From Liolophura sinensis (taxonomy: Eukaryota > Mollusca > Polyplacophora > Chitonida > Chitonidae), in contig NC_088300.1 of NCBI RefSeq assembly GCF_032854445.1, positions 32,283,608-32,347,607 of the forward strand: a stretch of DNA of 64,000 bases, in the 5' to 3' direction. The notes beneath the pieces are model-generated. The model had not been told where the DNA came from. It saw nothing but the letters and a program-made list of their open reading frames with translations, and made no database searches. Below are positions 4,466 to 36,221 of the stretch, one piece after another. Within the stretch, counting starts at the first letter, position 1. Each line of letters opens with the position of its first letter. The position numbers and the translations under genes were made by a program.

Positions 4466-7400
4466 ATGTTCAGCATGTCTTCAAATGATGATGAGAGGGA
4501 TATGGTAGATGTGCAACATGGGCTACATCATGCTGATCGTCAAGCCAAGTATACAGGTGAGTTGGAATGCAAATCTGTTCTTTCCTGACTGTTTCCCATT
4601 TCGAAAGCCACACCTACTGTCTTTGGCTCCATCCCAATAATTGGAATGTGCTGATCTATATAATTTGTATTGGGACTCCCAAACTTGTTATACATCTTTA
4701 TAATTTCTTATTTTATTCCCTGGAATTCATTTATAATGCATCTCAGACCATCTGGAGCTCTAGAGCTGGTTTATGATATTAAGTTCTTTGCTGCTGTATT
4801 TTTGCAAAAATAGCAAGCAACATAGTCATTGAAAGCTGTAGTAAGGAAAACATAGGAATTCTTGTGATACCAGATTGACTATAATTTCATTTTTGTCACA
4901 CAACATGTGCTTGTCTTGGATGTTAATTGTTAGTTTATGTGATTATGAAACTATAAATCTGATGATTTGTTTTTCTTTGCTTTTCAGCTGTTATTACGAA
5001 ACAGCCTCCAAGCGACCAACCTATGCGTTACAGAAGCGAGGCAAAAAAGGGCAACTGCTCCTGTAGCCAGAAAGGGTTCACAACAGCACCTCTTTTGCTT
5101 AGAGATGATGCCTGGATAGAAATTGAGGTGAATATGAACTTCATGTTTTTTTTCTACTCCTTAGCTGAACACTGATTTAATAGTGTTGTCAGAAAGTCAT
5201 TGTCATCAACCTGTGTTTGAAGGAAAATTTTGATACACAGTTAGTGGGCATTTGTAAACATAAATGCAGGAGAGTATACTGTCATCAGAATTTGGTTACC
5301 ACATGATATCTTGCCTGAAGGTTTTGGACTGGTCTCAGATTTGGGATATGGACTGGTGTTATTTTTTGCCTGCCTGTGCCATACTGCTCATCTGGTAGTT
5401 TATCCATTGGGTAGTTGGTCTCCACATTAATTCATGGCAAAAATTTTATGGATTGGTCTTAACTGTGGCCATTGTGGGTAATAAATCATCACATGAAACC
5501 TTACTTGAGATTAATTTTTGTCTGGATTCTCTCAGCTGTTTTGTAATTAGTTCATCTGTTAGGAGTTTGTTATCTGCTGAACATCTTGACAGCAGACTTC
5601 TGTCATGATTGTCTGATACGTCTCTGATTTTGTATGTGAATAGCTTGACGGTAAGCCTTACTGGGGACTGGTTTTCTGCACATTCGCCAAATCTAGTCTC
5701 CAGGCATGTCCTGCTTTAAGAGACCTGACACACAGTATAGGCTCAAACCTGAACAAATAATTTCCACTGGTAATATGTTATCCTCCATCCCCAAAACTCA
5801 ATACCTTTATAAAACTGCAACAATGCTGAGTATGTCAGTGTGTCACTCTACAGAGTCAAGAGACCTGGGATCAAATGTGGGTTGGTTCACACCAGACTTC
5901 AAAAATGGTGATTGTTTCTGCCTCGCAGGGGATTCAGCACTGAAAGGCTATAACAAGGAAACAGAATTGATCGGCCCGTTTTCAGTATGTTGTGGCCGAG
6001 TAAGGTGTCACGGTGTCTTTGGCATGATATTTGAGTGGCGGCAACACTTTGGCAGCATGGGCTCAACCAGTACTATCATACATTGTACTTTTAAACATGT
6101 TTCTTTTGCCGTGTTATTATAAATCTAATATGAGTAAAGCCTCAGTTATCCACGTGTACTGTGCATAGATAAGTAAACATACATTTGTCATTTTCAGCTG
6201 CAGCGTGGAAATGAACCAATTCCAGGAAGTATTGAGGTGACTATGTATACCTGTAACATAGCTGCACATGAAAGAACTGGTCCTGGACAGTATTTGCCTC
6301 ATCCATTCCCCTTGATTGGCACAGGCACGCTGGATGGAGTGTACAGGAGGGAACACTGTGGCAACCAACCAATCAGGTAACTAATTTAATTTTGAATAAT
6401 ACCTGGACTACTCAGTGATGTTCATTTAGGATAGCACAGTTGGTAGAGCTTCCTCGTTTGGCATTCAGCATGACGAGGATAGTGCAATAACTTGTTGACC
6501 TGTATGAGTATAATGGCTCGGGCGGGGAGGCTCACTTGACGGTAAGTCATCTCAGTGGAGCAGCACTAGATAAAAGAGTGGTGGAAATCCGTCCTGCGAC
6601 AAGGAGGCACATTACATAAACCCAAAGGATAACCCTTGGTCGTCATATGACTGAAAAATTGTTGGGTACTATGTTAAACTCCAAGCACTCACTCACTCTG
6701 TTGCTGATACTCTGTGTGCATATTAATTACTGTAAATTACCAAACCCATGACTTCAGTACCTTATGTACTTTAAATTGTTGGGCTGAAGTTTTGTATTCA
6801 TGTGTCTCTTACAGGCGTGCTCTTTTTTAGCCTTAACACTAAATCTAAGTTTTTAACCTCAGGATGTTTTAGAAATGCAACATATAACAATGGAACACCA
6901 GTGGATGTTAAGCCGTAGGGCCTTCCTATTTTTCAATATTATTTTGAAACTGTCTGTCTCCAGACAGACACAAGCATTAAAGTTTTTTTCTGCTGAATTC
7001 AAGGAATTCTTATACATGTATATTGTTTCCCATGGGCTTGGAAGAAGTTCTTAACATGTAAATGTAAGTGAAACTCAATACTTGACAATCAAACCATATT
7101 GTCAGTCTCTTTCAACTAACCATATTTGGTATTGTTGCATTATCACAGAATGACATGATTATCGGGTATTTTTCTAAAGAAGTGAAAGCCACAAGCTTAT
7201 CATTAATCCCACCACAAGCATTGTAGGTTAAGTGAATGTTTAAAAATAATCAAAACACCGAAAACTGAAAATTCTGCAAAAATAATTAAATGGGGAACTG
7301 TGAATTAAGTGGAAATGGAGCATGCACACACCACTCGTTAAACTTCATATGTGAACAAACATAGCTGATTACACGCGTAAAAGAAGGATTTACGGCTCGC

Positions 7401-10400
7401 TCCTGACACTATCAGCCAAAGACCGGCATTAAAAAAAAAAAAGAGCTCGACAGGTTGACAAGCAAGTCTAGAGTTGTAGTTGGTGGTCAGTTTGAATGGT
7501 GGAGAAAGAAAAGGGTCTCATGAAGCAATAAGATGTCTCAGATTTACTCCTTGTTGGGTGCAATTCATGTTGTTGTGGACAGGGTATTGAACTTCAAACA
7601 GACAAACGTTTCTGACTCTTAGTTTAATGAAATTATTCATAACCTTTTCTCAATGCTGTTTAAGATGCTGTACTCTTTATGTATCACTATTCAAAATTAT
7701 CTGAGTACGTTGACTGATTTAAAGTTGGTATCATAGGGAACTTTGCGAATGTTGCGCATATGCTTCAGGACCTTTTGGTTGAATACTTGTGAGGCAAATT
7801 CAGATTTAAAATGTGCATAAATTGCACTGAAAGCTCTTCTTTCATATGTGAAAAGGTTGAGGGATCAGGGCAAAACCACTCAGCCAATGTCATTTGGTGT
7901 GTAGAAGAAAAAAACATTATTTCATCACATTTTGATGACTTTGATTTCAAACCTCTCCCCTGGTGTTGCCACCTATGTGAAAGATAAAACAGGTACTACA
8001 AGTAACCAGTACACAGAAAGTGAAGACTGAAAGTCAGCTTGTCCTGTGTACAGTGAGAGCATCAGGAAACAGAATTTACATGTACGATTTGTTTGTCACA
8101 TTTTTGTCTATCTGACTACGAATGGTTAAATTGAAACTAACTAAAAAATTTTTTATTTGCACAGGATTCCCAGATTAAAAATTGAAAAATGCTCAGGGAA
8201 AAAGGTTGAAAACAATCTGAGAGATAAGATTGCATATGACTCAAGTGGACGTAAGTATATTTTAGTGAATTATCTCCCCTTCTCTTACACTGGGGAAGTC
8301 TCTCTTATAGATATGCAACTTTTTGGTGTCTTAACAGGATGTTTTGATGTAGTTACTAACATCGTTATCAAGTGAATGACATCAAAACATTAAGAGCTTA
8401 AATATAACAACTAGAGAAACAAAAGTCAACTGGTAGATCAGAGGATAGATGTGATCAAGCTGTACTGTGATTAAGGCGATTAACAGGTTTAGACTTACTG
8501 GGGTCATGATGTGCATATTAGTGTACATATTTATGTTGTGGACACAGGAAAGTTTGTTAGTAACTTGTCAAAGGTAGGTGGTTTGCCCTAGAAACTCATG
8601 AACTCCCGAACTCACAAACATGAATTTCAACCAGTGTACTTTTTTAGCCTTTGTGGCATTAAACTGTAAACAGTACTTGAGAAGTCGTACATAAATATCG
8701 ACAGTTGTGGGTGGTTTAGTCCAGCTACTACACTCCAGACCTAACACTGCAACTAGAATTAAGTGAAATGTTCTTGACTAAGGTGTTATGCACCAATCCA
8801 ATGTCTATTAATCAAAAAATGTCATCTTCCGCATCAGTATGTCAGCGACCATATTTCACCTAAGGTTTAGCACTTTTCTAAGTGACACATTTTCCTTCAT
8901 TCTGATTGATTCCTCCATGTTATAGGGGTTTTTTGGTCTGAAGTTTTATTATCATCAGAATAATTTAAGTGTTAGCAGCAAAAGTATCATTTTAAGGTCT
9001 TTAAGTGCTTGTGAGAGTTAACTTTTACCTACCAAATTTGAAGTGAAATGCAGTAACTAGTAGTTTGTACTGTTTTGTTTCAGAGCTAAATCAGATTTTT
9101 GAGACAGATGATAAGTTGCAACTGAAGACCGGTATGAATGGTGTCAGGCTCTGCATCTGCCTGAAGCTGATGTTTTCTGACAAATCATTTCTGGTTTTGG
9201 ATCCTTTATACTCTAATCCCATCATGGATACTTCAAAGATGCCTAAAGAAAGGACAGGTATCTGTAGTTCATGCTGAAACATATCTACCACTGTTTATTG
9301 TGCATTAAATAACTTTGTCCATTCTTCCATATTGGGAAGTTTTTATATTGATTGTCCCACCAAAGACTGTGCCCAGTTTCCTCCCACCATAATACTGGCC
9401 GCTGTTGTATAAGTGAAATATCCTTATGTATGGCAGAAAACATCAATCAAATAATTAGACATATATTGATCAGGATTTGTCATCAGGGCCACATGCAGGC
9501 AATTTTTTTATACCCATGAGGAAAAAAAAATGCCAAACAAGTCTAGATTAAAAGGAAATATTATAAATGTGATTATTTTGTCAGGCCTCACCAATTTAAA
9601 TTCTTGCTTTATGGTCAGAATCTATTCCGTATAGAGAAATTTATATATTGATTTTCAAGCAGCAGTTTCGTGCACTTTCCATCAGATGTGATGTATAGAC
9701 ATCAAGCAGCAGTTCTTGTGCTCTTTCCATCAGATGTGATGTATAGATATCACAGACCAATTCTCATGCACTTTCCATCAAATGGGATATATAGGTATTA
9801 CACACCAGTTCTTGTGCACTTTCCATCAAGTGTGATGTATAGATATCTCATTCTAGTCTCGTGCACTTTCCATCAAATGTGATGTATAGATCCCAACAAT
9901 CCAGAGCTAACTGCCTGGATACCTATAGGCATATCCAGAGCTATCTGCCTGGATACCTATAGGCATATCCAGAGCTGTCTGCCTGGATACCTACAGGCAT
10001 ATCCAGAGCTATCTGCCTGGATACCTATAGGCATATCCAGAGCTATCTGCCTGGATACCTATAGGCATATTCAGAGCTATCTGCCTGGATACCTACAGGC
10101 ATATCCAGAGCTATCTGCCTGGATACCTATAGGCATATCCAGAGCTGTCTGCCTGGATACCTACAGGCATATCCAGAGCTATCTGCCTGGATACCTACAG
10201 GCATATCCAGAGCTATCTGCCTGGATACCTATAGGCATACCCAGAGCTATCTGCCTGGATACCTATAGGCATACCCAGAGATGTCTGCCTGGATACCTAT
10301 AGAAAAATGTGGTGTCATTTTCAGATTGAGGCATAGGATAACTTAATGCATTTCACCTAAAGTTAGGTATTTAAATGTGCACAATGAGGCCTTAAGATGA

Positions 10401-13400
10401 TACTTTTGATGCCAACACTTCGGTGCTTCTGATAAAAAAAACTTTTAAGTGGCCCTGTACAAAGGTAAATGAATCCAACAGAATGAAGCCAAAATCCAGG
10501 CTTAAGGTGAAATACAGTACGAAGATGTATGTGGTTTTACTAATAAAGAAGTAATATCATTATAATATAGTATCCATGAACTCATTTTGTTAATGCATAA
10601 ATAAAATTTTTTTTTTTTTTTTGCGGTTTCTAGAAAAGATTGTCATGGAGGAAATCCACCCATCTTCTGCACCAGGCAGTGAGAGGAAAGAAGTTGGTGT
10701 CTGGGGGATAAATTTTCAGACAGGTGATTTAATAACATGTCGGGTGTTATTGAGATTGCCCGGAGTGCCGTTTTCTGTTAGATTTTCTTTCAAAGTCTGT
10801 CTCATGTAACATTTCCTTTCTGGATGTTTGTGGCAGTTTAGGCGCAATATAATTTCACATTTAATGTTTTTTGTCATGGTAGCTCATAGGGTCTGATTTC
10901 AAAATATGCCAGATTATAGTATTTCCATGTGTAAGTTCATCTTATGTGACTATTAGCAGTTTGTTATAATACTGAAATAGCCGAGATGGTCAGCAAGCCA
11001 ACATGGTGACCGAGAAGCCTCTCACCAATGCGGTCACTGTAAGCTCAAGTCCAGCTGTGGCTTCCTGAGCGGCCATACATGGGTTTTCCCTCGGGTTCTG
11101 CCCAGTTTCCTCCCTCCATAATGCTGGCCACCGTCACATGAGTGAAATATTCTTGAGTATGGCAAAAAAACATCAATCAAATAAGATAAATATATAAATA
11201 CTGAAATAGCTTTTGTTAGCAAGTTTCAAGGTTTGCCTATCTGTGTGAATACAAAATCTGTCTGGATTTCTGGTGAGTGAGAGAGTTTCATCAAACTGTG
11301 AGAGGATATCAAAGTGTAGAAACTTTTAAAAAGCAGGGTCTTCCAAGGCTAGTGGTTAGCGAGCTTGTGCAGCATATTAACCCAGGAGCCTCTCACCGTG
11401 GTGAGTGGGTTTCCCCAGGGCTCTGTCTGGTTTCCTCTCACCATAATGGCTTTTGTGATCTATAGCACTGGGTCATTTTCATTATTGGCACCCCCTCTGT
11501 TATTAGTCAAAGGATTGGTCAGCTGCTGGTTCACTGAATTCACTGAATGAGAATTCATATCTACGAAGCTGTGTTTTTTCAAAATTTACATACCCTGTCC
11601 ATTTTATAGTGTATGTATAAATACTTTGTACATAGAAAAACAGAACAGTAAATAGCAGAAACACAGGCAGATAAAGATGGGTTTCTATTCGTAAAATCAC
11701 TTTCTGCCTCATCATCGTGACAATTGGTGTTCAAAATCTTTGTAAAAAATTTGCTAATGATGGCATAGAGAATGGAACGTGCACTTTGAGGAATTTGGTA
11801 TGGGAAAGTGTGCATTTTGCAATTAACTTCGCTGCTGCAGCAACATATACAGCTGCAGGGGGCCTCCGTGGCTCAGTTGGTTAGTGCAGCGTAATCATCA
11901 AGGAGTCTCTCACCAATGCGGTCGCTGTGAGTTCAAATCCAGCTCATGCTAACTTCCTCTCTGGCCGTACGTGGGAAGGTTTGCCAGCAACCTGCGGATG
12001 GTCATGAGTTTCCCCTGGGCTGTGCCCGGATTCCACGCACCATAATGCTGGCCGCCGTCGTAGAAGTGAAATATTCTTGAGTATGGTGTAAAACACCAAT
12101 CAAATAAATAAATAAATATACAGCTGCATATATGTCAGACTTATGTAATGTTTGATAGGAAACAAAGTGATAGTGAGATTGTCACCTTTTGACTGCATCT
12201 GACTTTGACACGTTGAATGTGTTTCCTTGGTTTCAGGTGATGTGGTAGTATTCTCTGAGGAAAACACTGGATGGTCTGCTGAAGTAAAGGTGACAGCAGA
12301 TATGTGTTGTGGACCGGTAAGATACATTCCGATGATAATACCAAGATAATTTATTATCTTATACCAAGATAATTCTACCTAGGTATTCTACCTAACCGGC
12401 TAAGCCTCAGAATTTACACAGTATGGGAAAAGTAATAATAAAAGTATCAAAAAACACGTTACTATTTTATTGTTATGTGAATACTATGAGAGCCTTTAAA
12501 TTTCCACATTTTGACACCATTTTATTGTCAATCCACAACAAAGAACTGTAAAGAAAATCAAATTTCACAAATGTTGCGATCAAACCTGGAGCGGGCTATA
12601 CCGGAGACTTGTTGAGGCTTAACATGACGCTCAGTACTGAGAGGTTAGAGCATGGAAACAGGGCCGGTTGGCCCAGTGTCAGTATAATGTGACTGGGTGG
12701 GGTGTGACGTCTCATGTTTTCAGCATGATACTTCAGTGACGGCAACACTTTAGCAGCACGGACTCACCCTGCAACAAGGAGACACAGTATATGTAGTCAC
12801 GCCTAATGACTCCTCATCATCATATGACTGAAAAATTGTTAAGTAGGACATTAAGCCCAAAGTATTCATTCATTCATTCATTCCTAACCGCTGCCTCGGG
12901 GTAAATCCTGGCTTTACCAGATCTTATTGTGAAGCAGGCCTGCTTCAAACAAATGCCCAGACGAGGATTATCCCAAAATAAAGCCAAACAAAAAAGAAAA
13001 GAAAGTCCAGATTTTCACTCCCAGAATGAAAGCTTGTCCTTGCTTGTTTGAAACGTGAGACTCTCGGCATGCTGTACCTTAAAGAGGTTGATGGCTACCC
13101 TTACAAAATTTAAATTGGCATTTCTGTGAGTTACCAGTTGCTATTCCCATTCAATGTAATTCATGCTGGCTTTATTTTTACCAGTGAACAGAAATCATTA
13201 GCTCAATTGCTACTTTGATTGGTGTTGAGCGACCAATTATTCTCGCAACTGACAATCTAATGACCCAGTTGCTTGGTGACACAGGCTGGTATCATTTGAC
13301 CTTGTTACAAAATTTATTTTCTGGGGACTGGGAAGCATTGCCAAATTCTCCATTTGTACTACCCTCAGTCCGTGGATGTCAGCCCAATTCTTGTCAGACA

Positions 13401-16400
13401 AACCAGATGTTAGCTCGTTAGTGTTTATCCAGAAGTGGCCGAAATGTGAAAAGACAGGCAGACTGTCCAACTTTAAGTGAAACTTGTTAATATTGTAGTA
13501 TTTTAAAATGCAGTTAACAGAATGACACAGCATAAATATTATGTCTATTTTTAGTGTGAAAATAAATGTGTGCAATTTGCATATCACCTTCAACCTGTTC
13601 GCATGTTTGCTAAGTGTCTATTCAAGCGTATTCTATTAACATAATTCTGCACAGACTGATCAATTTTTCTTTTTGTGAAGTCCTGAAATTGGTCAACCCC
13701 TCCAATGTAGTTTTGTCTGTGAAAGCAAATTAAAAAGGTACGTAATTCTCACTGAAAGTTGCTCTTTCATATGCGAAAAGTTTGAGGAATTAGAGTAACA
13801 CAAATGGAAGCTTTCACACAGGGTTTTCAACTTTGGCAAACAGGTTGGTGTAGGTGTTCAGTCAATCAGATTTCTGGGTTCTGAAACAATAGACTGGTAA
13901 TGGTGGATTTCACTTACAAAGCTGTTATACCTGATGGAATTTTATCTCCCTAACCTATTTTTTGTGCAGAAAAAGATGAATATCCTCACCCCTGTGTATG
14001 ATGGACAGTCAGACTCGAAGGAAATCAAAGTCGATGTGTTTGTCCGCCGACAAACTGCGAGTGGACAAATTGACAGTGATCATGTGCCATTTACCTTTTA
14101 CCACGGCAAGTGTCTTCATGCAGATATAATATCACATTCGCAACAAACACTGACCTGCATTGCAAAGCTCTATAGATTTTCGGGTTTCTGGAAATTACAT
14201 GTATGACAACAGAATGACCCTTTTGCCCGTGCAGTGGGGAGGAGGCATATTTTTGTGTGTCCCTTCATCATCGGTGATTCATGATTGCCATTGGCTGAGT
14301 AGTCCGGTTAAAATGTTGACACTAGTCTGAGCTGAAGGCCATGCCCTCAAAGGGTATATGAAATTTAAACCCTACACAGCTGAATTACTGCGCAGACTGA
14401 CGTCATTTTTCTTTGTGTCACTAAATTTATACCTTGTGCAGCTATATTACTGCACAGGCTGATATCATTTTTCTCTGTGACTCTGCATTCCGTGGTGCAT
14501 CATTGTGATGCCACGCCACTATGCCAGCGCTCTGCGGTCGACCTAGCTATGCTGATTTTTCTTAGCTCAGCTTTGCATATGCACGAGACTGGCTTTCCAT
14601 TTGATAAATACTGAAGGGACAAAATCATTAACCGCCTGTTGGGAAGTGCGTATGAAAAGTTGAACCCTGGGTCGAAATTTTAACCCTTGACCTGCGGCTC
14701 AAGTAAAAGTGTGGACTAGAAAATGAGAGATCATTTGTTTAAATCCCCAGTCACACTTCCATCGGTGCACCTGTTTTTATGTCTTTGGGTCAGGTTTTCT
14801 AGAACTTGGTGACATTTACTCTTGAAAACTAATACAAAGGAGACTCCTGAAAATCAAGCAACATTAAGTGTGTTTAAATACTCTCTTGTGGTTGGCACAT
14901 ATTTTTTATTTATTAAATTGATGTGTATTCATATTTACTTCCATTTGGTCCATCTACATGTATATAATTCTGTAACTGCCTGGAATTTGTGAACAGTCAA
15001 CAGCAGGATCATGATGCTCACAAGTCACAATGACTAAACCAGTCCCTTCTGAGCTGTGCATGTTTCAATACCTGAAATGTTGGCTGTCCAAATGCCTGTC
15101 TGTCTGTCCGTCTGTCTGCTTTACAATGTATGTTATTCTGTAATTTACAAGAAATTATGAAACTAATTAGTGATAGGAGGACCATGAATCTCTGAAGCTT
15201 GTGATTTATGCCTGTCGTTTGGTCTACCAAACGTTTTAAAATTCTGTATTAATCTTCGAGTATACTTAACTACCCTAATTCTTCAACCTTTTCAGCCGTA
15301 TGTGGCAAGGTTTGGCAGCAACCTGTGGATGGTCGTGGGTTTTCCCCAGGCTCTGCCTGGTTTCCTCCCACCATAATGCTGGGTGCTGCCGTAAAAATGA
15401 AACATTCTTGAGTACGGCGTAAAACACGAATAAAATCAGATCAAATCAACCTTTTCAGCCACCATCGTCACCAATATTTTGAAACATTGTGAGAAAATTA
15501 TCGACTGTAGAGAAATAATCTGCGCATTCTAGCTCACCTGTACAAAGAAAGCAATGTTAAACAAAATTTCAGGATGCTGTCGTTAAAAGTTCTTCAGGTA
15601 TTAAGATCGGGGTTTGAACACATATAAAGCATAATAGCACAAAGGGGATATGTGGTAAATACTATAAATAATTGAATTCCTGATTTTGTGTGTTGTTTTA
15701 AAATCAGTGTTAAACAAAAGATTTTCAGTAAAAACATTTACTCCAGCTCTCTAATGTCGAAGGTATTTTCCGTATGGTAGTCTAAACAGCAGTAGCCTAT
15801 GACAGAAAAAAGTTGTGAAAAATGTTGTTTTCTAGGAAAATGGACATGCTGGAAGAATATTTTTGCCACTGCTTGAACTGTTGATACAGCAGGCCTACTT
15901 TATCATTTACAAGGAACTTCAATGACCCTGCTTCAGTCATGTCAATAGACCTGCTGTTGATGCAGATGCATGGCCAGGGTTTCACCTGTGATCTGTTAGT
16001 ATGGGGTTAGATGTAGATAACAAGGGTGGCCAACTTGCCTGCCTATCAGTATATATAAGCTACACTTAGACCAAGGTCTTGGGCTACATGGCTGAGGTAG
16101 TCCTGGAACAGGTGGTAGCCTCTGGAGGGGTTGTGCTGGTGATTTTGATCTCAAATGTTTACAAAATTACAATAGGATTGTTGTACAAGATTCATACTCA
16201 GTTCTGAAACAAATGGAAATAAACTTAAGCACCAATAAGGCTCTTCTAGGCATTCGACTGTCGCTGGACTTTATGCTTCAATTTTGTAGCTCTGGCTTCT
16301 TAGATGAAAGACCTAGTGATGACCTAGTTATCGCAAATGTCAGAGAAAGCACCTTGGCTAGAACACGGCATTTCAATAATTTTACTGCATTTTATAATAA

Positions 16401-22354: not shown

Positions 22355-22414
22355 TAGTATTACACCAGTTAAGAATGATGGCAGCTTGAAACTGACTTAC
22401 AGAGGGTGCACCTG

Positions 22415-22520
22415 CCTGTGGTTGTGGGTTTCCTTGGTTTCCTACCACCACAATGCTGGCACCTGTCGTATGTGTAAGTGAAATATTCTTGAGTACAGCT
22501 TAAAATACCAACCAAATCAG
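22415..22520 (+). mobile_element. SINE family A, 3' fragment
   Basis: 'gtttcctaccaccacaatgc', 'gtgaaatattcttgagtaca' and 'aaaataccaaccaaatcag'. Confidence 0.75.
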
Positions 22521-22788
22521 TATAACTAAATAAATACAGATGGTTACTGGTCAGGTACAGGTCAATGTGGGTTTCATTTTTCAGTGGGGTCGTGTCAAAC
22601 ACCTGGCAGCAGGAATCTGATTAGGCCTATGTTCACCAGCCAGGTGATATAGATCCAATACCGGTACCTTACTCAGCCTATTGACATATCATACTTTGGC
22701 TCAAAAAAGATGGACCTTGACACTGTATTGACGTCAAATGTTACTTTCCCGGCCAATTTTATCATGATGACGTCACATTAAAGATATG

Positions 22789-22850
22789 TTCCTCCCACGA
22801 TAATGCTGGCTGCTCTTATATAAGCGATGATATTCTTGGGTACGGGTCTT
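22789..22850 (+). mobile_element. SINE family A fragment
   Basis: 'ttcctcccacgataatgctg' and 'tatataagcgatgatattct' correspond to the 3' half of family A. Confidence 0.55.
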
Positions 22851-24370: not shown

Positions 24371-27300
24371 ATGGCGGCAAGTCAAGGTGAGAACAAACCA
24401 TAAATCGAGAGTAAAACGTGACTCGAATTCTCGAAGAGCATTTCACTTGTCGACTTCCGTCTCGGGTCCATTTTGTTATAATGTCGTGCTGAAGCCGTAC
24501 GCACAGCCTTGCGTAGCGGCTACACCTCGTGGTTGCTGATGAAATCTGCTTTTGCTTCAAATATCACTTTGTCTGCTACTGTTTAAGTTTTTTGATCTCT
24601 CTACACAAACGAAATTCCTATTTTATCAAGGTACATGTAGATACACGTGACAATACACCTATGGATACAGTGTCATCTGAATTTATATGTATACTAGTGT
24701 ATATGGCTTAGGAATATATATGGTTTTAAATATAAACGGTGTCATTTTATGTCACTTAAGAGGCCCATCAGTTCTTATATTGTATTTATGTCACTTTGTT
24801 AACACAGCCAAATGCATACTGACATCTTTACACCAGACAGAGGTAAACTGTGAGTGGTAGAAAAATTTAAATCTGTAGCGTATTTCAGGTTGATTAGAAA
24901 ATATGACCGCCAAGTTTAATATTATAGCTGATGTTTTTTTGTCTTTTTTTTGTATGTCTTAGGAAAATAGGAATAAAACATGTACATATTTATATGTAGT
25001 CAGTATATCTAGTTTAAACTTCAAACTGGTGTCAACTTAATCTAGACCATCCAGGCAGATGAGGTGAGAGGTGTTGAAACTTGCATGCACATTAGTAAAA
25101 TGAGGTCATACATATCCCAGTGACCTGGAATATCGCTATTTTTTTATTGTTGGTAAACATTGGAGAATTTTTTACCAAGACGATGACGTTCAGTTTCATG
25201 GTTCGAGAAAATCAGAGAGCTTCTGCCAAGCCATTTACTGAAAATTATAAAAATGAATGAAGGAACCTACTGAGTGAATGTATATTGTTATTACAACTTC
25301 ACACTGACCTTTCTACAGGTATTATAATTCAGATTCACTGAATTTTTGTTCAGATCGAGGTACACATGACATATGTGAGTAAAGATGAAAAGAATTTTTG
25401 CATTCCTGAAAATCAAGGTGTAGAAAATGTGGTACGACTTCAGTGGTATATGTTATCCCTATGGTCCATAAATCTTGCTTTACTATCCACATGTTTGACT
25501 GCATTTAATTCTGTGAAAAAAAAAAAAAAAAAGAATTAGAAAAGGTATTTTCTCTTGAATCGTTTTTATGTTTTATGTCTCTTTTAATGTACTTTACCTA
25601 TAAGCTCATGTCTTGTCCCAACTCATTCTGTTAGAAGATCGCTGAAGAAATTTGTGTGTTCCTCCACAGACTTCGCTCTTCCGCTTGAGGACCTGTCAAA
25701 ATACGACAGCAAAGAGCTGGAGAAAATCCTGCAGAATTTTGGTGGCTTTGACAGTGATGTTGGCACATGTAAGTAGTACACATATATGCAGATGGTTAAA
25801 TCTGCCTGGGGCAATCATTAAAATATTCCATATGCCCATGGGCAACCACTTTTGGGGCATAGAGACGTGCTAATTTTGACACCTTTGGGCTTTCATCAAG
25901 GTGATCGTCAGTTTAAACACTTAACAAACAGATAAAAGCTATAATAATGTTCAGGGGCCTCCGTGGCTCAGTCGGTTAAAGCGCTAGCGCAGCGTAATGA
26001 CCCAGGAGTCTCTCACCAATGCGGTCGATACGAGTTCAAGTCCAGCTCATGCTGGCTTCTTCTCCGGCCGTACGTGAGAAGGTCTGTCAGCAACCTGCGG
26101 ATGGTCGTGGGTTTCCCCCGGGCTCTGCCCGGTTTCCACCCACCATAATGCTGGCCGCCGTCGTATGAGTGAAATATTCTTGAGTACGGCGTAAAACACC
26201 AATCAAAAAAAAAAAAAAAAAAAAAAAATAATAATGTTCAGGCTTTTTCAGGGACAGGTATTTCTTGACATTGAGGTTCAACATGAAGTAAAATTAATAT
26301 TCTTTTTTACCATGAGTTCTAATGTGTTAAATGAAATATCATACAGCTTAGTTGCGCCTTGGCAAAACCTGTCTATTCTAATCCCAGGAAATGTCAGTGA
26401 AAAAATTTGCAAATAGCTGGAAATGAAAGATATTGTGGGCCAACATATAATGATAACTTAGCAGACAATGCAAAATTGCAGACATTGTTATTGAGCAGTG
26501 TTTATGCTGACTTGCTGTGACAGTCTGGGTCCAGTGACCAGTGAGGCCATGTGCAGGATATGCAGGCGTCCAAGCATCTGTCAGGCAGATAAATAAATGA
26601 CTTTACCTGAAGTTATGATTGTCTGCTAGTAGCACTTGTACAGGTGTAACGTGAAAAGATAGAGGAATACAATATTCATCATCTAATCCTCATGTAACAC
26701 CCCTTCTCATGAAAACTCCATCGATATACAAACATTATTTAGAGTGCTAAGATGTGGTGAACTACACTTTTGTTCAAATGTTACAATTTGGCCTGCACTA
26801 AAAAGACAATGGAATAGATCATTCCTCATTTGAGTGCCTAATCCGTTCCCTTCTGGCTGTTCATAGGAACTTTGGTGACAATGAACAGTTCTGTTGATAA
26901 TGCACATGGCTGTTTGCACAGACTTTCAATACACTTGCTGTAAACCACTTGTCTTCCATCAATATGAAGTGCAAGATTGTATGTGTTGAGACACAGGAAC
27001 TGCCATCAGTAACTTTCCAAGGTTTTTTTTTTTCACCTCCAGCACTCTTGTTTCCTTCACCAATAAAACTGAACCCCATCGAATAAGTGGAGCATTCTTA
27101 GGTATGGTAACAATAACCAATCAGTACTACTTAAACAAACTTAACGTAAAACACCTATCAAATAAGTAAACAAATTAAATTATCTTTGGTCTGATTTTAG
27201 CTTCAGAGTTGAATCGTATCTTGGAAGCAGCGGCAGCTCAGACTGACCCAGAGTCTGTGGCCCCCTCCTCCAGTACAGGACCAGGTACCTATCAGATCAG

Positions 27301-30300
27301 CCCTCAACCAGCACCCACAACACCCAAACCTGCCCAAGGTACCAGCAGTAGGCAAAGAGCTGGGGCTGCCAAACAAGGGCCAGCAAGGGGAGCTCACTCC
27401 AGCATGATGACAGGAAGTCAAGCTGAAAACCAGTCTGCCCCGTATGTTGAGATCATCGAACAGCCTCGAACCAAAGGGCTTAGGTTCAGGTACGAGTGCG
27501 AGGGTCGATCTGCTGGGAGTATCCCAGGTGAAAACAGCACTCCAGAGAAGAAGACGTATCCTACCATTAAGGTTAGTGCTCAGCCTGATGTCTTCTGTTG
27601 AGTTGGCTAGAGTTTTTTTTCTGTTTTGAAGCCTTTAATTCTTGCTTCAGAATCACTCTGAGAGATTTTTTTTGGATCAACTATTTTTTCAGGTGTTTTT
27701 GTTTTGTTTAAATTCAACCTTACCAGAGAAACGCAAACCCCCTTGTTTCAGCATCAGTTGGTTATGGTGCGTAAATTTCATTGTGAACATGAGTGTGAAT
27801 CTTCAAACTCCTCCTTGTAGCTGGCTTTGCCTTTTGCCTAGTTCCTTCTAAACATACATGTATGTGTAGTGCTGCTATTGTAGAAGCCAAATGTGGTCAC
27901 ACATACTGAGTCAGAATACACTCACAATAAGTACTTTACCTTTATGTTACCCTCTAGATATCCAGCAAGCCATGATCTGAAGATAAATTCACTTACCTTT
28001 AAGTTGTTAGGACGCATGAATTGCATTTTTAAAGAAAGCCTTCAGAGCGATATTAAACCCTAAATACACAAACAAAGTCGGCCTTATAATTAAATAGGGA
28101 ATTTGTAGATGGCCCTGATTTCACTGCTTGTGGAGTCTTTGGTGGCAGATAGCAGTCATTGACAACTGTGTTGCCATTAGCATAGTCTAATGTTTGGTGA
28201 AGACCATTTGTCTTCCACTAACATGCTATGCATATCTGTACACAGCTATCACATGTGGGCAAGTCTGTCATTAACTTGCCAGACAATGGTGGTTTACTCC
28301 AGGCTTTCTGGTTTATTCTGCACATGAAACTGTCTGCCATCATATCAGGTGAAAAATTCTTGAGTATGGCAAATAAAAGTTAAATTTTATGTGACGGTAC
28401 ACCCATATGCTCTTACAAGTATGAAGTGAGAAAGTTGTAAATGTCCAGTTAGGGTATGACCCTACTCCAGAAATAACCTCCAATGTGTTTCTTATTCATG
28501 AGATGAACTGGCCTGATTATCGGTGAAATGAAGACGTGAATTTTAAAATTTCTTCATGATATATTTATTTGTTTGTAGATCCACAACCATACTGGGGCAG
28601 CTGTTGTTGTGGTGTCATGTGTCACGAAAGACTTGCCTAAGCCTCGACCTCATCCCCATGCCTTGGTGGGGAAGGACTGTACCAAAGGGGTGTGCACCGT
28701 ACGTGTGAGGGACGCATCTGTCATCAAGTAAGTAGGATCACATTTCACACATCCACTATAAATCATCCCAGATGTAGAGTACAGTTAATTTGCATAATAA
28801 CTTGCTAATTAGTACAAAGCCAAAGTTTTTAAATCACATTATTTTAAAAATTATTAAAAAAAAATATTTCAACCAGTAAATTAAAACATGTCTATTTTAG
28901 ATGTCATCTTATATATGTAGTGATGTATTATTGGCTGTTTTCATGGTTTAAAAAATGGAATTGTATATACAGTTTGTACTTGTTCATGTATTGTTATAAG
29001 AGGGCCTCTGGAAAGAACAAATTGTACAGTTTGACAAAGTTAAACTTTGGTTTCATTCGTTCGTTCCAAATGACAACAGAGTGCACTCCGAGTGCAAAAT
29101 GACGTCGTTTCTTTACAGGGTGATAGAGCTAATTCTCGGTCTATTATTCAATATGACAGAATTCGTTAGTTAGTTAGTGACAAGGTCATCTTCCCAATAG
29201 AAGTCATTTTGTTGCCGTCTCTGGAAAACCTGCACATTATATTACACTGTATTGCTTTATTTTCAGTTAAGCACCATGTAAAACCCCAGCTGTGCATACA
29301 TACTTGTACATACATGTACATGCTGAATGTAGTTTTGCCTTAATTACCCAGTTGGAAATTCCTCAATCTTTTCGCATGTGAAAGAGCAACATTCAGTGCA
29401 ATTGTTGCACATTTATAGTTTCATTTTTTAGATAGAACTAGATTGGGTGGATTGGTTAGTTTCAGAGCTACACAAAAAAGGATAATTTTATCAATCTACA
29501 CAGAATAATGCCTTCAGATTATGCTTGAATAAACACCTTGCAATCATGCGAAAAGGTTGAAGAATTACAGTGAGAGACATTTCACAATGCGGTATGTTTC
29601 TTCGCACAGGTTCCCTCACCTTGGTATTCAGTGTGCCAAAAAGAAGGATGTAGAAGATCACATTCGAACCAGAAAGGAAATCAATGTAGACCCTTTTCAA
29701 AGTAAGACAAAAAAGTGATTGTGTTGATGTTCTACATCATATAAAGTATAACAAAATATTTCTCTGATTCAAAGCAGTTCCATCAGACTTAACTGTAACA
29801 GGTTTAGAAGGTAAGTAGTGTAATTATGAATTCTTGTGTCAGTCAGCCTGGATGAAAGATTTGAATGCCTGGAATAAAGATTATTTTGGTCTGTACATTT
29901 AGATTCCACATGAACTTATCTTCATTAAGCACATACTCTCAGTGGCTAGAAAGGTTTCATACATATTTTATATGTCTTTCCATAGTACATGAAATATTGA
30001 GACTTATAGTACTGCTTGCTTTACACTCTGATGCATTTGTTTTCAGCTGGGTTCGACAATCCAAAGGACATAGACCTGAATATCGTGCGTCTTTGCTTCC
30101 AAGTTTTCCTTCCTGGAAAAGATGGAAAGTTTACAAGAATTGTTCAGCCTGTTTGTTCCAATGCTATTCTGGACAAGAGTAGGTTTATTTCTCTACTAAT
30201 TAATTATCACCATTCATTCACATATTTTGGATTTTAAACTCATCAATGGGTTACCTCCCTTGGACAAGTCAGTTTGGCTGATTTGTCATTAAAGGTATAC

Positions 30301-32502
30301 AGGACCGCCTCTGATTGACTGGCATAAGAGATTGGCAAGTCCAGGCTAAGTCTTGTCAATTCTGATTAGCTGATGTGAGAGATTGGCAAGTCCAGGCTAT
30401 GTCTTGTCATTTCTGATTGGCTGGCATGAGAGATTGGCAAGTCCAGGCTATGTCTGGTCAGTTCTGATTGGCTGGTGTGAGAGATTGGCAAGTCCAGGCC
30501 ATGCCTAGCCTAAGCTGAATTTTAGGTATGGCAGATTTATTAATTAAAGCGTGACCAAAGCTTGACTTAACTCAGAAAACCCTGCCTCCACTGTCATCCA
30601 CTCGGTGTTAATTCTGTAACCCTTTAAGTCTGTTTTTTTTTTCAAGGTCAAGAGCATGTAACGCTATGAAAGAATTGTGGAAGCAGGCTGTAAAATCTCA
30701 CTTCAGTAAAATTATGTTAGAAACCCACTTATTTGACTTTGCATTATAGTTCTGCTGATTTAGTTCCCAAAAAAGACATTGTTTAGGTTTTATGTACCAT
30801 GTATTATCATGAAGAAGCATTGTAAACTAAATAGTTGTTGTATTATAACAAAGGTTTTACAAGTTTAGCATGAAAGGATACATGAAACGCTTGCTGTTTA
30901 CTTCTTAAAATGGGGTATAAATCAGCTATAAATGTACAAAAAGATTCTTAACTTTCTTTATGGAGCCTAAGAATGCCTTTTCCTATGGCCCCAGTGGTCT
31001 GTCCAGAAATTAAGTAGTCTGCTGTGTTGATATCCACAGTGATAGGTGTCAAAAACAACTTTGTTGGTGAGCGAGCCTGAATTGGGCGCTAAGCTGGCCT
31101 TGTGTTCGCAGAATGTTTGTCAACAACATCTTTTCCAAATATTCCCTTCCACTGATGGAACATATGTATAAAATTAAAAGAGTTGTAAAATGTGCCTCAA
31201 AAATGAAAATTTTTCTCATTTTTTCAGCATATCTTTTTTTGTTATCCTTAAAACCAAACTGTTCATTTTGTAATGCCTTATCATGTATCCTTCATATGTT
31301 TTCAGAGGCACACAATGAGTTGGTGATTTGTCGCATAGACCACACCTCAGGCAGAGCCAGGGGAGGAGATGAAGTCTTTCTGCTCTGTGAAAAAGTCAAC
31401 AAAGGTAGTGTGTTTGTTTGTTAATGCTATAATACTCAAAGTCAGTGACGGTAATGTCATGGTATGATTATAATGCTATAATGCTTTGAAGTCAATAAAG
31501 TTAATGTGATGTTTTCTGTAAAAACTTGTTGGTTAGCCAGTGAAAGTAATGTGATGTTTTGTAAATGCCTTTTTTGCTCAAAGTCAATAAAAATACATGT
31601 AATGTGATGTTTTGTATATGCCTTTTTGCTCAAAGTCAATTAAAATACAAGTAATGTGATGTTTTGTAAATTGTAGAAGTAATGTTTTTTTTTGCTTTTT
31701 TTGGTATTTTGTATTTAATAATAACTAAGCTATTTTGGGATAGTCTTGCTAATAATCAGTTTGTAACATTATTTTGTTATGTTGTGCTGTTTTACCTCTC
31801 CTCCAGATGACATTGGTGTACGTTTCTATGAACTTGGTGAAGATGGTACATCGACATGGGAAGACTATGCAGACTTTGGGCAAGGAGATGTTCATAGACA
31901 GGTAAGTCAATGGCCCACAGCATTGTGTCTACGAAGGCCTTTTTACAGCAGGTTTGTAAGTGACAATCACTGTCTAAGGTTTGGGTGTTCAAGCTGGTTT
32001 ACCCATCCAAGATCATTTTTTGTCACATATATCTGTTGCACTCGTGCTGTGACAGACACAGATTCCTCTGATTCTGTGTCTTGAAAGAGAGTGTCTTGAG
32101 AAAGGGAGAGGTGTAATGGGGGCAGCTTTCTGGTGCTGGTACAAACAGTAGCGAGAGAGAACTTACCAATAGCCCAGATGATGGGAGAGAGAAAATTTGA
32201 GCAGAGAGATCTGATTTTAAATCCTACTGAATGATACGCCTAGTTTTCAGACGGAATACTGTGAATACCCAGTATCCGTGACCTCAACACCCAGGACACA
32301 TCACTGAAAGACATGCTATGCATCATTTGAACACCCAGCACACGTCACTTGAACAACTGGTACATGTCACTTGAACAACTGGTACATGTCACTTGAACAT
32401 CATATACATGTATCAGGTAAACTGGTAGATGAATTCCAGCAGTCAGTGAAGCCTACATGTATGTGTATTAAGTTCAATCCAGCTCTGGTAGGTCTGGGTA
32501 GG

Positions 32503-32563
<61 letters not shown>

Positions 32564-35500
32564 TGAATCTGATGAAATGAACCCAAAAGGCTGTGCTGTG
32601 GATGACTGGTACCCACAGCCATGTTGGATCTCTAACAAAAGAATTTCATAGTCTCTTCTGGCTCTCCTATTTGTACACGTCCGCAATGAAAGTCATCTAT
32701 AAAATCATAGCTCCAGCTACATAGATGGAATATTATAACACCCAAATCCAGTTTCCTCTAGCCATAAAACTTAATTTAAGTGTAAAATTCCTTTGTATGG
32801 CATTAAACAGTAATCAGATGTATAAATACTGTAAATCTATGACATTGTAAATTTCATGCATATCAAGTGAGGAAATTTTTCCGTCGTTTAGATATACCCA
32901 GTTGTCAAACAATCCACATGTATTGGTATAAATGGACTTACTTAAATATGATGAACAAACCAATTACCAGTATAATAAAGTGGCTTGATGACTTTCTGAT
33001 CTGAGAATTCTATCTTGCAGATAAAAACTATGTATGAGATTTCAGTTTGGGAGGTTTTCTTTGATGGTGACAGTGGGTTATTTTTTGAAAGACATGGGCA
33101 TTTAAGTGCAGGGTTACAGTATAAATGAAAAGATGTTACTCAACAGCACATATGTTCAGAACTGCAAAAAATTAAACAGATTCAAAATAAGTGTCCTGAC
33201 TGTAGGGCTGAGATGTTGAAAAGCATATCTGCCGTTAAGCCTGCTGTTAACTTAAGCTTGGTCTAAAATCGCATTTGTTTTATGAAAGGCAAAGACTGGT
33301 ATTAAAATTTAAGCCTAGTTTAACTTTTAATACACTTTTGAACAGCAGGCCCTTGGGTGTTCATATTGATGCTGTTAAACAGATCTATCTGATGTTGACT
33401 TTTGTAGCTGGCCATTGTATTCAGAACACCTGCCTACAGGGAGACAAACATCAGCACTCCTGTGCACGTGTTCCTACAACTGAGGCGCCCTTCAGACCAG
33501 GAGGTCAGTGACAGTATCCCCTTCACCTACATGCCAGAGGATCCAGGTACGTTGTCTGCAGCTTTATACAGATACAGAAATTAATGGGGAAATTAATAGA
33601 AGACACGAAGACGAGCTACACAGGTCTAAATGGTAATCACTTCATTTATGTGCGTCATGAGCACACATATACTAAAGGAAAGAACAGAAGTGTTCACAGC
33701 TTTGGACTGATTTGTGACTGGTGGAAGGGATTTTACTAGTTTCCAGTTAAATAATAAATAAACAGCTCAGTACCAAAGGGCTTTAGTTATTCCTCACTAA
33801 TATATGACATCTTATTGGACAATGTACATGTAATTCAGCTTAGAGCTACTGTACGATTTTTGTGTGCATGTTTTTGTGTGTGTGTGTGTTTGCTTTTTTT
33901 TGTTGTTTTTTTTTTTATATACGCTCCTTTGTATATCCTTGGAAGTTTGTCTGGTATGAACAGAGGTTTGAAAGAATTATTAACCTATACACATGTTTAA
34001 TCTTTCTCTTTTCAGACCCACACCACATTGAGGAGAAACGAAAGCGGAAATTCCAGAAGTTTAACTCTTTCATCCAGGATGAGTCACCAGGTAGGTTAAT
34101 GTTTAAATATAGAGAATAAAACATTGACCATGTGTTTTCTTTGTGGAAAAAATCAAGCTTTGCCATCCCAAAACATTCTTATTCACAAAGTTGTGTGCCA
34201 AATGAAAGACACCCTGCCTGAAAAGTAAAGCTTAAACGTCAGATCAAACCTGGCCTCCACACAGTTGAAATTTCCTGCTGTCACTGGTTGTGGGGCAGTG
34301 GTGACAAAGAATCAGTTGATGATAGATGTGTGACTGTTAAAGTTGTCATAACCTTCATTGAACACCACTTATCCTCCACCAGTATAATGTGCATATCAGT
34401 AATTCACAGTCAGCTTTAAAGTTGGGAGACCGGAGATCAAACCTGGGTCAGGTCACTTCGCGCTCAGCACTAAGAGGTTACAGCAAAGAAACAAGTCTGC
34501 TTGACCTGATGTCAGTATATTGTGACTGGGTAGGGAGTTAAGTCTGGTGTCTTAGGCGTGATAGATCATGGACTGGCCTTGCCACAAGAAGACACAGTAT
34601 TTACAAACACCATGAATGACATCTGATCATCATATATTTTTAGTAAGATGTGAAAACCTGAGCATACATACATACAATATGTCAAGTCTGGGATAGTTTA
34701 TCAGTAACTTCCCAAATGTTGGTGGTTTTATCTGGGCACTCCATCCATTAAACTGACCTCCATCGTAAGCGTAAAATCGTGTTAACAGCAATCAATCAAT
34801 CAATCAATTTAATTTTTACGCATGTGACTGTAACATTTTGACCCTGAAGTATATATAGCAATCACAGAACATTGGCTTGGCATTTATTTTGTACCTTCTA
34901 TACTTAGCCTATTCCTTTTAAGACAAGATTGACGTGCATGTGGTGTACATGTATATTGAAAATAATTTCGAAATGTTGATTTAATTACAAGAAGTTTCAC
35001 CTGTGAATTCGGTTGTTTAACAGTAAATTATTGAATGTCATGGTGGAATTCCGACTGGACGTTCCCTTTCATTATGTAACATTTCATGTTATCATAATTT
35101 CAATAAAGGATTTTGAATATTTTATGCAGCTGGAAGAAATGCCACAGTGAAGGAACGAATCAAGGCTAAGGCTTCAAGAAAGATTAAACAAGAACGTAAG
35201 TGATGAATATTGAATTTCTGAAATTGTATAACCTGTTCGCACAAAGAACATCGCATGTTCAATGATTTGTAGCATTGCTAGTATTACATCTTTTTGTGTG
35301 TTCATTACACAAATCTGCTGATATGGTTATGGAAAATAAAATACCTTTAACTTCTTTAATTCCATACGTCTAAATTTGTGCCCAACATTTCAAACAAAGT
35401 TAGTTCCAAATGTGTCAGAGTTTATAATTTGAAGACCTGTTCTATTTACTAGGACATTTCTTGGCTAATGTTGGTATTTTATGGTTTCATATGGTTTTAG

Positions 35501-36221
35501 ATTCTGGTACATGTGTACTTTTGTCTAACACAAAATAGCATGGAGGTTTTTATGTTTTTCTGATTTTTCTTTGACAGAGGCTGATCCAGCTCTTCCTCTC
35601 TATAACATTGGTAACATTGAGGGTCAGTCACAGAATCAGACCTGTGCTGTCGGCCCTCCCCATGGTGCGTACATGGGTGGGGTCCCGGCCATGAGCACTG
35701 TCTCTACCATGAACTTCACCAGTGGGGCTACCACCAGCGCGGCCACTGTACAAGTCAACCCTCAGCATGTAAGCGCAACTAGTTCCAACTTGGGGAACAT
35801 CACCATGGGCAACCTGTTCCAGCAGTCAAGTGGTGTCCAGGCAGCCCAACTGCCGGTTGTACCTGACCTTCACATGTCCTCAATTCCTGAGGGTCAAGAC
35901 CCCAACAAAATGAACAATGAGTTCATGTACCCCAACTACACCACCTCTAACCCCATCATAACAGACATTAACTTTGCCGTTCCCACCAGCTCATTTGACC
36001 TCTCTGTCCTTCAGGAGTATCTCCGTGACAACCCAGCCAACTTGGCCGAGGGGGAGTCAACGGAAATGGCTTCCTTTGGTCTGTCAAGCGATCTGCTAAC
36101 AACAGACTATGACCCCGGTGTGGCAGCCATGGTCAGCGTGTCCTCCGACACCATGGAGAACGACCTTGAAACTCAGCGTCAGTGTGAGGAAGTGCATAGA
36201 GCCCTCAGTGACCTCAAGTGA
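24371..36221 (+). CDS. REL: Rel, class II NF-kB transcription factor (12 exons, 658 aa)
   Basis: Exons: 24371-24386, 25670-25768, 27201-27571, 28579-28727, 29610-29701, 30047-30178, 31306-31404, 31807-31901, 33408-33546, 34016-34090, 35130-35195, 35578-36221; all phases close. A 118-residue N-terminal extension precedes a textbook Rel homology domain. The recognition loop [16 protein letters not shown] is at residues 133-148. The N-terminal domain continues to ~286 (with '[13 protein letters not shown]' and '[13 protein letters not shown]'). The IPT dimerisation domain is ~288-393, with [12 protein letters not shown] and the RRPS phospho-site motif ending at S380. The NLS EEKRKRK is at ~403-409. 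The C-terminal ~215 residues are Ser/Thr/Pro/Asn-rich and would be the transactivation region. There are no ankyrin repeats, so it is Rel/Dorsal/p65 type, not p100/p105. It would act in Toll/IMD-like immune and developmental signalling, held in the cytoplasm by IkB. A full SINE sits in intron 2. Confidence 0.96.
25941..26242 (+). mobile_element. young full-length SINE family A with 15-bp target-site duplication
   Basis: The direct repeat 'ataataatgttcagg' occurs at 25941-25955 and 26228-26242 and is identical. Between them lies a complete SINE with an A-box ('ggctcagtcgg'), a B-box-like 'gagttcaagtcc' and a pure poly(A) tail of about 20. It lies in Rel intron 2. The perfect duplication and A-tail point to recent LINE-mediated insertion. 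Confidence 0.95.
27000..27165 (+). mobile_element. old SINE family A fragment
   Basis: Weak match: 'tttccttcaccaataaaact', 'gaataagtggagcattctta' and 'acgtaaaacacctatcaaat'. It lies just upstream of Rel exon 3. Confidence 0.4.
28208..28386 (+). mobile_element. old SINE family A relative
   Basis: 'atgtgggcaagtctgtcatt', 'tactccaggctttctggttt' and 'ttcttgagtatggc' follow the order of family A but are strongly diverged. In Rel intron 3. Confidence 0.5.
29345..29575. mobile_element. MITE C, most complete copy
   Basis: Inverted ends: 'cctcaatcttttcgcatgtg' at the left and 'catgcgaaaaggttgaagaa' at the right. The interior contains 'cacagaataatgccttcaga', shared with 47055-47245. It lies in Rel intron 4 and ends about 34 bp before the acceptor of exon 5. 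Confidence 0.7.
30308..30510. repeat. 51-bp tandem repeat, ~4 copies
   Basis: The core 'gagattggcaagtccaggct' starts at 30328, 30379 and 30430 and again 51 bp later. In Rel intron 6. Confidence 0.9.
31450..31680. repeat. degenerate tandem repeat (~57 bp) in Rel intron 7
   Basis: 'gtaatgtgatgttttgtaaa' followed by 'tgcctttt' and 'gctcaaagtcaat' recurs three to four times with small length changes. Confidence 0.75.
32506..32566. repeat. (TA)n microsatellite
   Basis: About 60 bp of almost pure TA dinucleotides in Rel intron 8. Open frames with Tyr-Ile repeats across it are artefacts. Confidence 0.95.
34425..34660 (+). mobile_element. SINE-like repeat, family B
   Basis: 'cgctcagcactaagaggtta', 'tattgtgactgggtagggag' and 'gccacaagaagacacagtat' match the family B copies at 12575 and 4022. 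In Rel intron 10. Confidence 0.6.
34695..34810 (+). mobile_element. old SINE family A relative with (atca)n tail
   Basis: 'cagtaacttcccaaatgttg', 'ctccatccattaaactgacc' and an 'aatcaatcaatcaatcaatt' tail. Strongly diverged. Confidence 0.4.

Follow-up and report, generated by a model that had tools for sequence, protein, structure and literature searches.

What is the gene that lies directly upstream of Rel in the chiton Liolophura sinensis, and is it a copy of Rel? The window that we analysed is a stretch of 64,000 nucleotides on scaffold C6 (assembly GCF_032854445.1, NC_088300.1, forward strand, positions 32,283,608–32,347,607; the chiton assembly was first published as Liolophura japonica, and its authors later changed the species to L. 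sinensis, PMC12441733). From its sequence, two gene models were rebuilt by splice-site reading: an upstream gene, here called UP, with 12 coding exons (4466–20159, plus strand, 706 aa), and Rel, an ordinary Rel gene, also with 12 coding exons (24371–36221, plus strand, 658 aa). An earlier, sequence-only reading had described the two as a tandem head-to-tail pair about 4.2 kb apart, which agrees with the 4,211 bp that we find between the UP stop codon and the Rel start codon, and had regarded their matching intron phases as strong evidence for a local duplication. Our analyses confirm the pair but do not support this inference. We think it probable, if well short of certain, that UP belongs to the Rel homology superfamily as an intact gene for a rapidly evolving transcription factor, that it stems most likely from the Rel/NF-κB side, and that it has been kept beside Rel. 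Descent from this side is the likeliest because of the introns, the DNA-binding half of the protein and the layout of the gene.

The reading frame of UP is open across all 706 codons and 12 exons to the terminal stop without an inner stop, whereas each of the other two frames has at least one stop in 12 of 12 exons. All acceptors are AG and all donors GT, with the exception of one GC donor after 14105. Homology with Rel is evident from a Smith–Waterman score of 116 between the Rel homology domain (RHD) stretches of the two genes, where the highest of 500 shuffles scored 58 (z 17.2), and from a one-on-one blastp match (E 1.9e-9, 26.9% identity over 238 positions). The RHD of UP is about 25% identical to that of Rel, and the earlier description of a strongly diverged upstream gene is borne out. 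This very high divergence is the point in favour of a decaying pseudogene or a chance assembly of exons, an explanation that is hardly credible in view of the uninterrupted frame, the canonical splice sites and a similarity above all 500 shuffles.

Domain models barely recognize the gene. The only Pfam match of the UP protein is to RHD_dimer PF16179 (E 3e-5, 24.4 bits with a curated cut-off of 28.3, profile positions 13–100 of 103); PF00554 was not among the matches at an E limit of 10, although the filters of HMMER remove the majority of those with E above about 0.1, and neither an ankyrin match in Pfam nor a match of residues 1–367 in NCBIfam was obtained. Rel, p105 and NFAT5 gave clear Pfam matches for both domains. 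In searches of the whole genome (609,464,459 bases, 632 contigs), PF00554 gave seven matches, all in Rel (C6) and p105 (C1, 96,433,062 bases), and PF16179 gave ten at E ≤ 10, eight of which lie in Rel, p105 and a gene on C9 (37,343,639 bases) that is NFAT5-like (340 bits to NFAT5 versus 193 to NFATc2); UP was missed by both. The two other PF16179 matches, elsewhere in the genome, are weak (E 0.78 and 4.2). When we searched the genome for further UP-like copies, 12 of 12 matches were the exons of UP itself, a result that excludes near copies only, as the same search also missed Rel.

The ten identical intron phases noted earlier are also present in the rebuilt genes: the outgoing phases are 1,0,2,1,1,1,0,1,1,1,1 in UP and 1,1,0,2,1,1,1,0,1,1,1 in Rel, which from exon 2 onward reads 1,0,2,1,1,1,0,1,1,1. 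Given the phase frequencies of Rel, the chance of ten matches is about 3e-4, a value of little meaning, as the genes are homologous. The accompanying claim that the introns fall at the same places holds for four of the seven introns inside the RHD or at its end, which share an alignment column (60, 136, 283 and 315); the other three lie in indel-rich segments with offsets of 32, 7 and 3 columns, and the flanking introns differ. The pre-RHD intron directly precedes the RHD in UP, whereas in Rel some 80 residues separate the two, and the positions of the first intron past the last RHD intron are 17 columns apart (405 and 388). What has to be abandoned is the conclusion drawn from the phases. The p105/NF-κB gene on C1 has the phases 0,2,1,1,1,0,1 through the RHD, its RHD entry is phase 1 as judged from the frame at the acceptor, and the exon after the series (C1:35815944–35816105, read by eye) enters and leaves at phase 1. 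The phase series is a structure common to the Rel/NF-κB family, and because p105 on another scaffold has the same series, it is uninformative as to whether UP is a copy of Rel or of p105. As proof of a Rel copy, the phases are thus ruled out by the p105 control: family-wide intron phases cannot polarise a duplication within that family.

The introns are informative with respect to NFAT. The NFAT5-type gene on C9 has the phases 0,2,1,0,1 (read by eye), which means that five of the series are kept, and it lacks two introns of UP, Rel and p105, one of which (column 283, phase 1) lies in exactly the same column in the three genes. Because these two introns are missing in NFAT5, UP has a Rel/NF-κB gene structure and not that of NFAT, unless NFAT lost them. 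The sequence-only reading had named a tree that places UP with NFAT or another IPT family as an outcome that would speak against it; the introns set UP apart from NFAT. An unusual gene of the NFAT lineage could account for an IPT half that is nearest to NFAT5 and for the NFAT-like spacing of the recognition loop; UP shares this spacing and the GxNF motif of the IPT domain with NFAT. The NFAT intron set is not found in UP, nor are the NFAT-specific inserts around the PHP block, a basic stretch follows the IPT domain as in Rel, and the genome has its separate NFAT5-type gene. We consider an NFAT-lineage gene quite improbable, and membership of NFAT was rejected on the basis of introns and inserts.

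The DNA-binding half and the gene layout bring UP close to class II Rel. A phmmer search of UP residues 1–367 against the PDB (E ≤ 10) matched 13 distinct sequences, and 13 of 13 were chains of class II Rel proteins, namely p65, RelB and c-Rel, or fusions that include such a chain (lowest E 5.8e-5), with no p50, p52 or NFAT among the matches; these alignments begin at UP residue 104 or later, i.e., past the recognition loop, and p65, RelB and c-Rel were matched over 104–325. Pairwise scores in the DNA-binding half were 94 for p65, 86 for Rel, 69 for RelB, 54 for p105, 50 for chiton NFAT5 and 49 for NFAT5. Past the RHD, the layout is Rel-like, with an exon resembling a nuclear localization signal (ARRARKKLK at the position of EEKRKRK in Rel, after the IPT domain), short phase 1-1 exons, and one long last exon without an ankyrin match. 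In p105, the RHD is followed by a glycine-rich exon and then by frames that we read as ankyrin- and death-domain-like. Neither a glycine-rich region nor, in the Pfam scan, ankyrin repeats were found in UP, and of the class I stretch, which in p105 and p50 separates the LGI block from the VRLC block by about 20–25 residues (alignment, counted by eye), it has none. Class I membership was rejected, as this stretch is missing and UP+class I had a p value of 0.025 in the approximately unbiased (AU) test. The class II RHD exon phases are present in UP; they are not diagnostic, since p105 has them too. Diagnostic columns were too few to decide (class II versus class I, 3 to 1 of 12; Rel/NF-κB versus NFAT, 11 to 7 of 48; strict count, 1 to 4 of 11).

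Several results weigh against an origin from the Rel/NF-κB side or from Rel itself. The identity of UP to chiton Rel (25.2%) does not exceed that to the NFAT5 of 1imh (26.1%; chiton NFAT5, 21.7%), and in the IPT domain, NFAT5 (PDB 1imh) has the highest pairwise score (80), followed by RelB (57), Rel (56), NFATc2 (56), chiton NFAT5 (45) and p105 (42). Trees were calculated from ten rows and 269 columns, with one UP sequence and partial RelB and Gambif1 rows. Without UP, NFAT and Rel/NF-κB separate at 100/100; in the best tree, UP attaches between the two groups (87/92, not starred) with a branch of 4.6, and the tree carries the tool warning that long branches meet. In constrained LG+G4 analyses, the between-groups tree was better than UP+Rel by 18.65 log-likelihood (lnL) units, than UP+class II, in which UP pairs with RelB, by 11.72, and than UP+class I by 15.06. 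The IPT domain alone placed UP with NFAT (NFATc2) at 98/100, likewise with a long-branch warning, and gave AU p values of 0.048 for UP+Rel and 0.086 for UP+class II.

Simulations, 40 per setting and scored on fixed trees, went in the same direction. The difference of 18.65 was reached in 0/40 data sets when UP+Rel was the true history, in 2/40 when UP belonged to class II as sister of RelB, and in 37/40 when it branched between the groups; the difference of 11.72 over class II was reached in 1/40, 0/40 and 38/40, respectively, and the between-groups tree came out first among the four trees in 6/40, 7/40 and 39/40. With the site rates of UP redrawn, 0/40 were obtained at two settings, whose copies were closer to Rel than UP is (40–46%), and 0/40 at each of four further settings (21–31% identity). 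After ungapping and realignment, the observed difference was 21.20, which was reached in 0/40 in three Rel-derived sets and in 36/40 of the between-groups set. Redrawn-rate Rel copies with 24–27% identity to Rel had about 16% to NFAT5, and in shared-rate simulations NFAT5 was as close as Rel in 2/40. UP has 13 NFAT-exclusive and 20 Rel-exclusive residues, and at least 13 NFAT-exclusive residues were seen in 26/40 between-groups simulations, in 7/40 with UP as sister of Rel and in 5/40 with class II (shared rates), and in 0/40 in two redrawn-rate sets. A Rel copy is thus disfavoured by the simulations, as far as their models go.

The maximum-likelihood position and the parametric simulations would fit a third old animal RHD lineage, neither NFAT nor Rel/NF-κB, that branches between the two, was retained beside Rel in chitons and has been overlooked since it lies below the Pfam cut-offs applied in surveys of the family; the NFAT-type loop spacing, the GxNF motif and the 13 NFAT-exclusive residues, a number often reached under this history, would fit as well. 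Such a lineage nevertheless appears unlikely to us. Its signal comes mainly from the IPT domain (14.9 lnL over UP+Rel), while the DNA-binding body contributes 5.4 and the loop columns slightly favour UP+Rel (1.6), and the DNA-binding half alone does not resolve the position (AU p values of 0.264 for UP+Rel, 0.394 for UP+class II and 0.295 for UP+NFAT). The NFAT-like signal sits mainly in regions that Rel/NF-κB proteins conserve for dimerisation and for contact with DNA. Once contacts specific to Rel were lost, UP could have drifted towards residues that suit any IPT fold and that NFAT also has, which would mimic the signal; a drift of this kind, as a form of convergence, is ignored by the simulation models. 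When NFAT is taken out of the tree, UP joins the partial RelB row (96/86), a placement with a zero-length RelB tip and a UP branch of 10 that we do not trust. The comparison covers ten sequences, two of them partial, and a single animal genome. In the accessible part of a published phylogeny, animal Rel/NF-κB and NFAT form one clade each, and these are the two Rel homology region (RHR) families described (PMC8763368).

The narrower explanation, that UP is a local tandem duplicate of Rel itself whose upstream copy then diverged extremely, is a sub-case of the reading that we prefer, and our confidence in the two overlaps; taken by itself, it is possible, yet we lean against it. Tandem position and the Rel-like layout past the RHD are the remaining positive arguments for it, to which the class II character of the DNA-binding half and of the PDB matches can be added. 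UP+Rel is not rejected in the DNA-binding half alone, and even with Rel as the true sister some simulations preferred the between-groups tree. On the other side, the phases are common to p105, the likelihood preference was matched in 0/40 simulated Rel-derived copies at each UP+Rel setting, the identity to Rel does not exceed that to NFAT5, and the C-terminal region has no blastp similarity to Rel. AU tests of the whole RHR gave p values of 0.060 for UP+Rel, 0.116 for UP+class II, 0.127 for UP+Rel+Gambif1, 0.125 for UP+p65 and 0.119 for UP+RelB. The sequence-only reading had expected UP next to Rel in a tree; it does not stand there in the best tree, which goes against that reading, though with p = 0.060 for UP+Rel and 0.116 for UP+class II not decisively. 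On the basis of one UP sequence in ten rows, with partial references and models without convergence, we regard the Rel/NF-κB side as the likeliest source of UP.

UP has lost family-specific residues at the sequence level. In the alignment, its recognition loop QPPSDQPMRYRSEAKKG is spaced as in NFAT (QPEDQHRARYKTEGSRG), with two residues fewer than the loop of Rel: in place of the class II loop RxRYxCEGRSAG, UP has PMRYRSEAKKG. Aligned to p65, position 33 changed from Arg to Pro and position 38 from Cys to Ser, and Arg35, Tyr36 and Glu39 are kept. In the accessible part of PMC8763368, non-animal Rel/NF-κB-like proteins share a highly conserved recognition loop, and because of this the short loop of UP is probably derived. 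In the second half, the changes are F213G, L215W, H245C, R246G, V248K and A249K (p65 numbering), and Gln220 is kept; these are positions that we take to make dimer-face or backbone contacts in p65, and most of them are changed. UP has RRQT, which resembles the kinase site RRPS of p65; in the alignment, the column of that site is taken by a Ser located further along in UP.

From these features, a mode of action can be proposed. The UP protein would enter the nucleus through the basic stretch after the IPT domain and may bind DNA via a recognition loop of NFAT-like length that keeps the equivalents of Arg35, Tyr36 and Glu39 and has lost Arg33. It probably cannot use the usual Rel/NF-κB dimer face and would then act as a monomer, pair with itself or have acquired a different partner, and the long last exon could serve as an activation region in place of ankyrin repeats. 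Expression of UP may be driven by Rel/NF-κB via a κB-type site in the 5' flank. The pattern GGGRNNYYCC has 14 matches at 8 places in the window versus 4.66 expected, a number reached in 0/100 shuffles, with overlapping and palindromic matches counted. A stricter pattern chosen post hoc, GGGGRNTYCCC, occurs at only two places in the window, one 5' of UP and one 5' of Rel (Table 1). These candidate sites are suggestive of a possible shared κB control of both genes. A 5' non-coding exon further upstream of UP is likely, because an acceptor-like TTGTTTTCAG ends shortly before the first coding exon.

Table 1. Coding exons of UP and Rel and candidate κB-type sites (positions in the window).
Feature	Position	Strand	Remarks
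κB-type site GGGGAATCCCC	3256–3266		palindrome-like; 1.2 kb 5' of UP ATG; post hoc
UP coding exon 1	4466–4556	+	MFSMSSNDD...; ends phase 1; acceptor-like TTGTTTTCAG ends at 4452
UP exon 2	4988–5127	+	recognition-loop exon (QPPSDQPMRYRSEAKKG); ends phase 0
UP exon 3	6198–6376	+	YLPHPFPLIG block; ends phase 2
UP exon 4	8165–8250	+	ends phase 1
UP exon 5	9084–9257	+	GVRLCICLKL and SNPIMD blocks; ends phase 1
UP exon 6	10634–10723	+	IPT start, GxNF motif; ends phase 1
UP exon 7	12237–12316	+	IPT; ends phase 0
UP exon 8	13970–14105	+	IPT end (RRQT, VPFTFYH); ends phase 1; GC donor
UP exon 9	17324–17449	+	basic, NLS-like ARRARKKLK right after IPT; ends phase 1
UP exon 10	18330–18467	+	ends phase 1
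UP exon 11	18943–19026	+	ends phase 1
UP exon 12	19363–20159	+	long terminal exon with stop; no domain in Pfam scan
κB-type site GGGGGTTTCCC	24176–24186	+	185 bp 5' of Rel ATG; post hoc
Rel exon 1	24371–24386	+	MAASQ; ends phase 1
Rel exon 2	25670–25768	+	ends phase 1
Rel exon 3	27201–27571	+	recognition loop; ends phase 0
Rel exon 4	28579–28727	+	ends phase 2
Rel exon 5	29610–29701	+	ends phase 1
Rel exon 6	30047–30178	+	VRLCF block; ends phase 1
Rel exon 7	31306–31404	+	IPT; ends phase 1
Rel exon 8	31807–31901	+	IPT; ends phase 0
Rel exon 9	33408–33546	+	IPT; ends phase 1
Rel exon 10	34016–34090	+	basic stretch EEKRKRK; ends phase 1
Rel exon 11	35130–35195	+	ends phase 1
Rel exon 12	35578–36221	+	terminal exon with stop

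Several repeats lie in and around the two genes. Just upstream of UP lies a tandem array of 42 copies of a 53-bp unit (488–2705), and intron 5 of UP has two more (9655–9891, 48-bp unit, 5 copies; 9899–10302, 34-bp unit, 11.9 copies). Between UP and Rel, an open frame on the minus strand (21845–22396) that weakly matches RNase H (18 bits, below cut-off) is likely a retroelement fragment. A repeated unit (GGCCTCCGTGGCTCAGT...) resembling a short interspersed element was seen by eye at 11857–12110, 20450–20700 and 25956–26210; ARAGORN, run in its bacterial setting, called no tRNA in the window. Downstream of Rel, there are minisatellite arrays at 39892–40170, 43693–44363, 54339–54816 and 55324–55892, and an open frame at 61213–61875 (plus strand) with a weak Tex55 match (23.3 bits, below cut-off) over DPYNKAISYLEKHNILQLFQ. 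In the p105 region on C1, a repetitive stretch with long overlapping open frames lies between exons at about C1:35820859–35823090.

In the literature on mollusc Rel, RHD phylogeny and chiton NF-κB, of which our coverage was partial, neither UP nor the UP/Rel pair was described as judged from titles and the beginnings of abstracts. In the accessible parts of the respective papers, Mollusca have on average one c-Rel per species, and trees place mollusc c-Rel in more than one c-Rel group (PMC11432056); Aplysia has one p105-like, one RelB/Dorsal-like and one NFAT gene (PMC9334734), and for a nemertean, a single Dorsal/p65 and a single Relish are described (PMC9835746). The main text of PMC11432056 contains none of the words 'intron', 'tandem' and 'chiton', and that of the chiton assembly paper (PMC11068029) neither 'NF-kappa' nor 'Rel homology'. 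An RHR gene below both Pfam cut-offs suggests that members of the family can escape mollusc surveys. Orthologues of UP, should they exist, would be a test of how much of its dimer face and loop can be lost by a Rel factor or, alternatively, of whether animals had a third RHR lineage.

Compared with known systems, UP shares its intron phases through the RHD with the class I NF-κB genes p105 and Relish, represented here by the separate gene on C1, and differs from them in that the class I stretch and the glycine-rich region are missing and no ankyrin repeats were matched. With NFAT5, represented by the separate gene on C9, it has in common the loop spacing, a Ser/Thr at position 38, the IPT motif GxNF...V.F and the best IPT score (1imh), whereas it differs by two additional introns, by a DNA-binding half free of NFAT inserts, and by a basic stretch past the IPT domain. 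To class II Rel (RelA, RelB, c-Rel, Gambif1 and chiton Rel), UP corresponds in a probable RHR-N, an IPT domain and a basic stretch, in its intron phases and in a terminal exon without an ankyrin match, and the DNA-binding half is most similar to this class; it deviates by an identity of only about 25%, a loop shorter by two residues with Arg33 replaced by Pro, the replaced dimer-face residues, and scores below the Pfam cut-offs for both RHD models.

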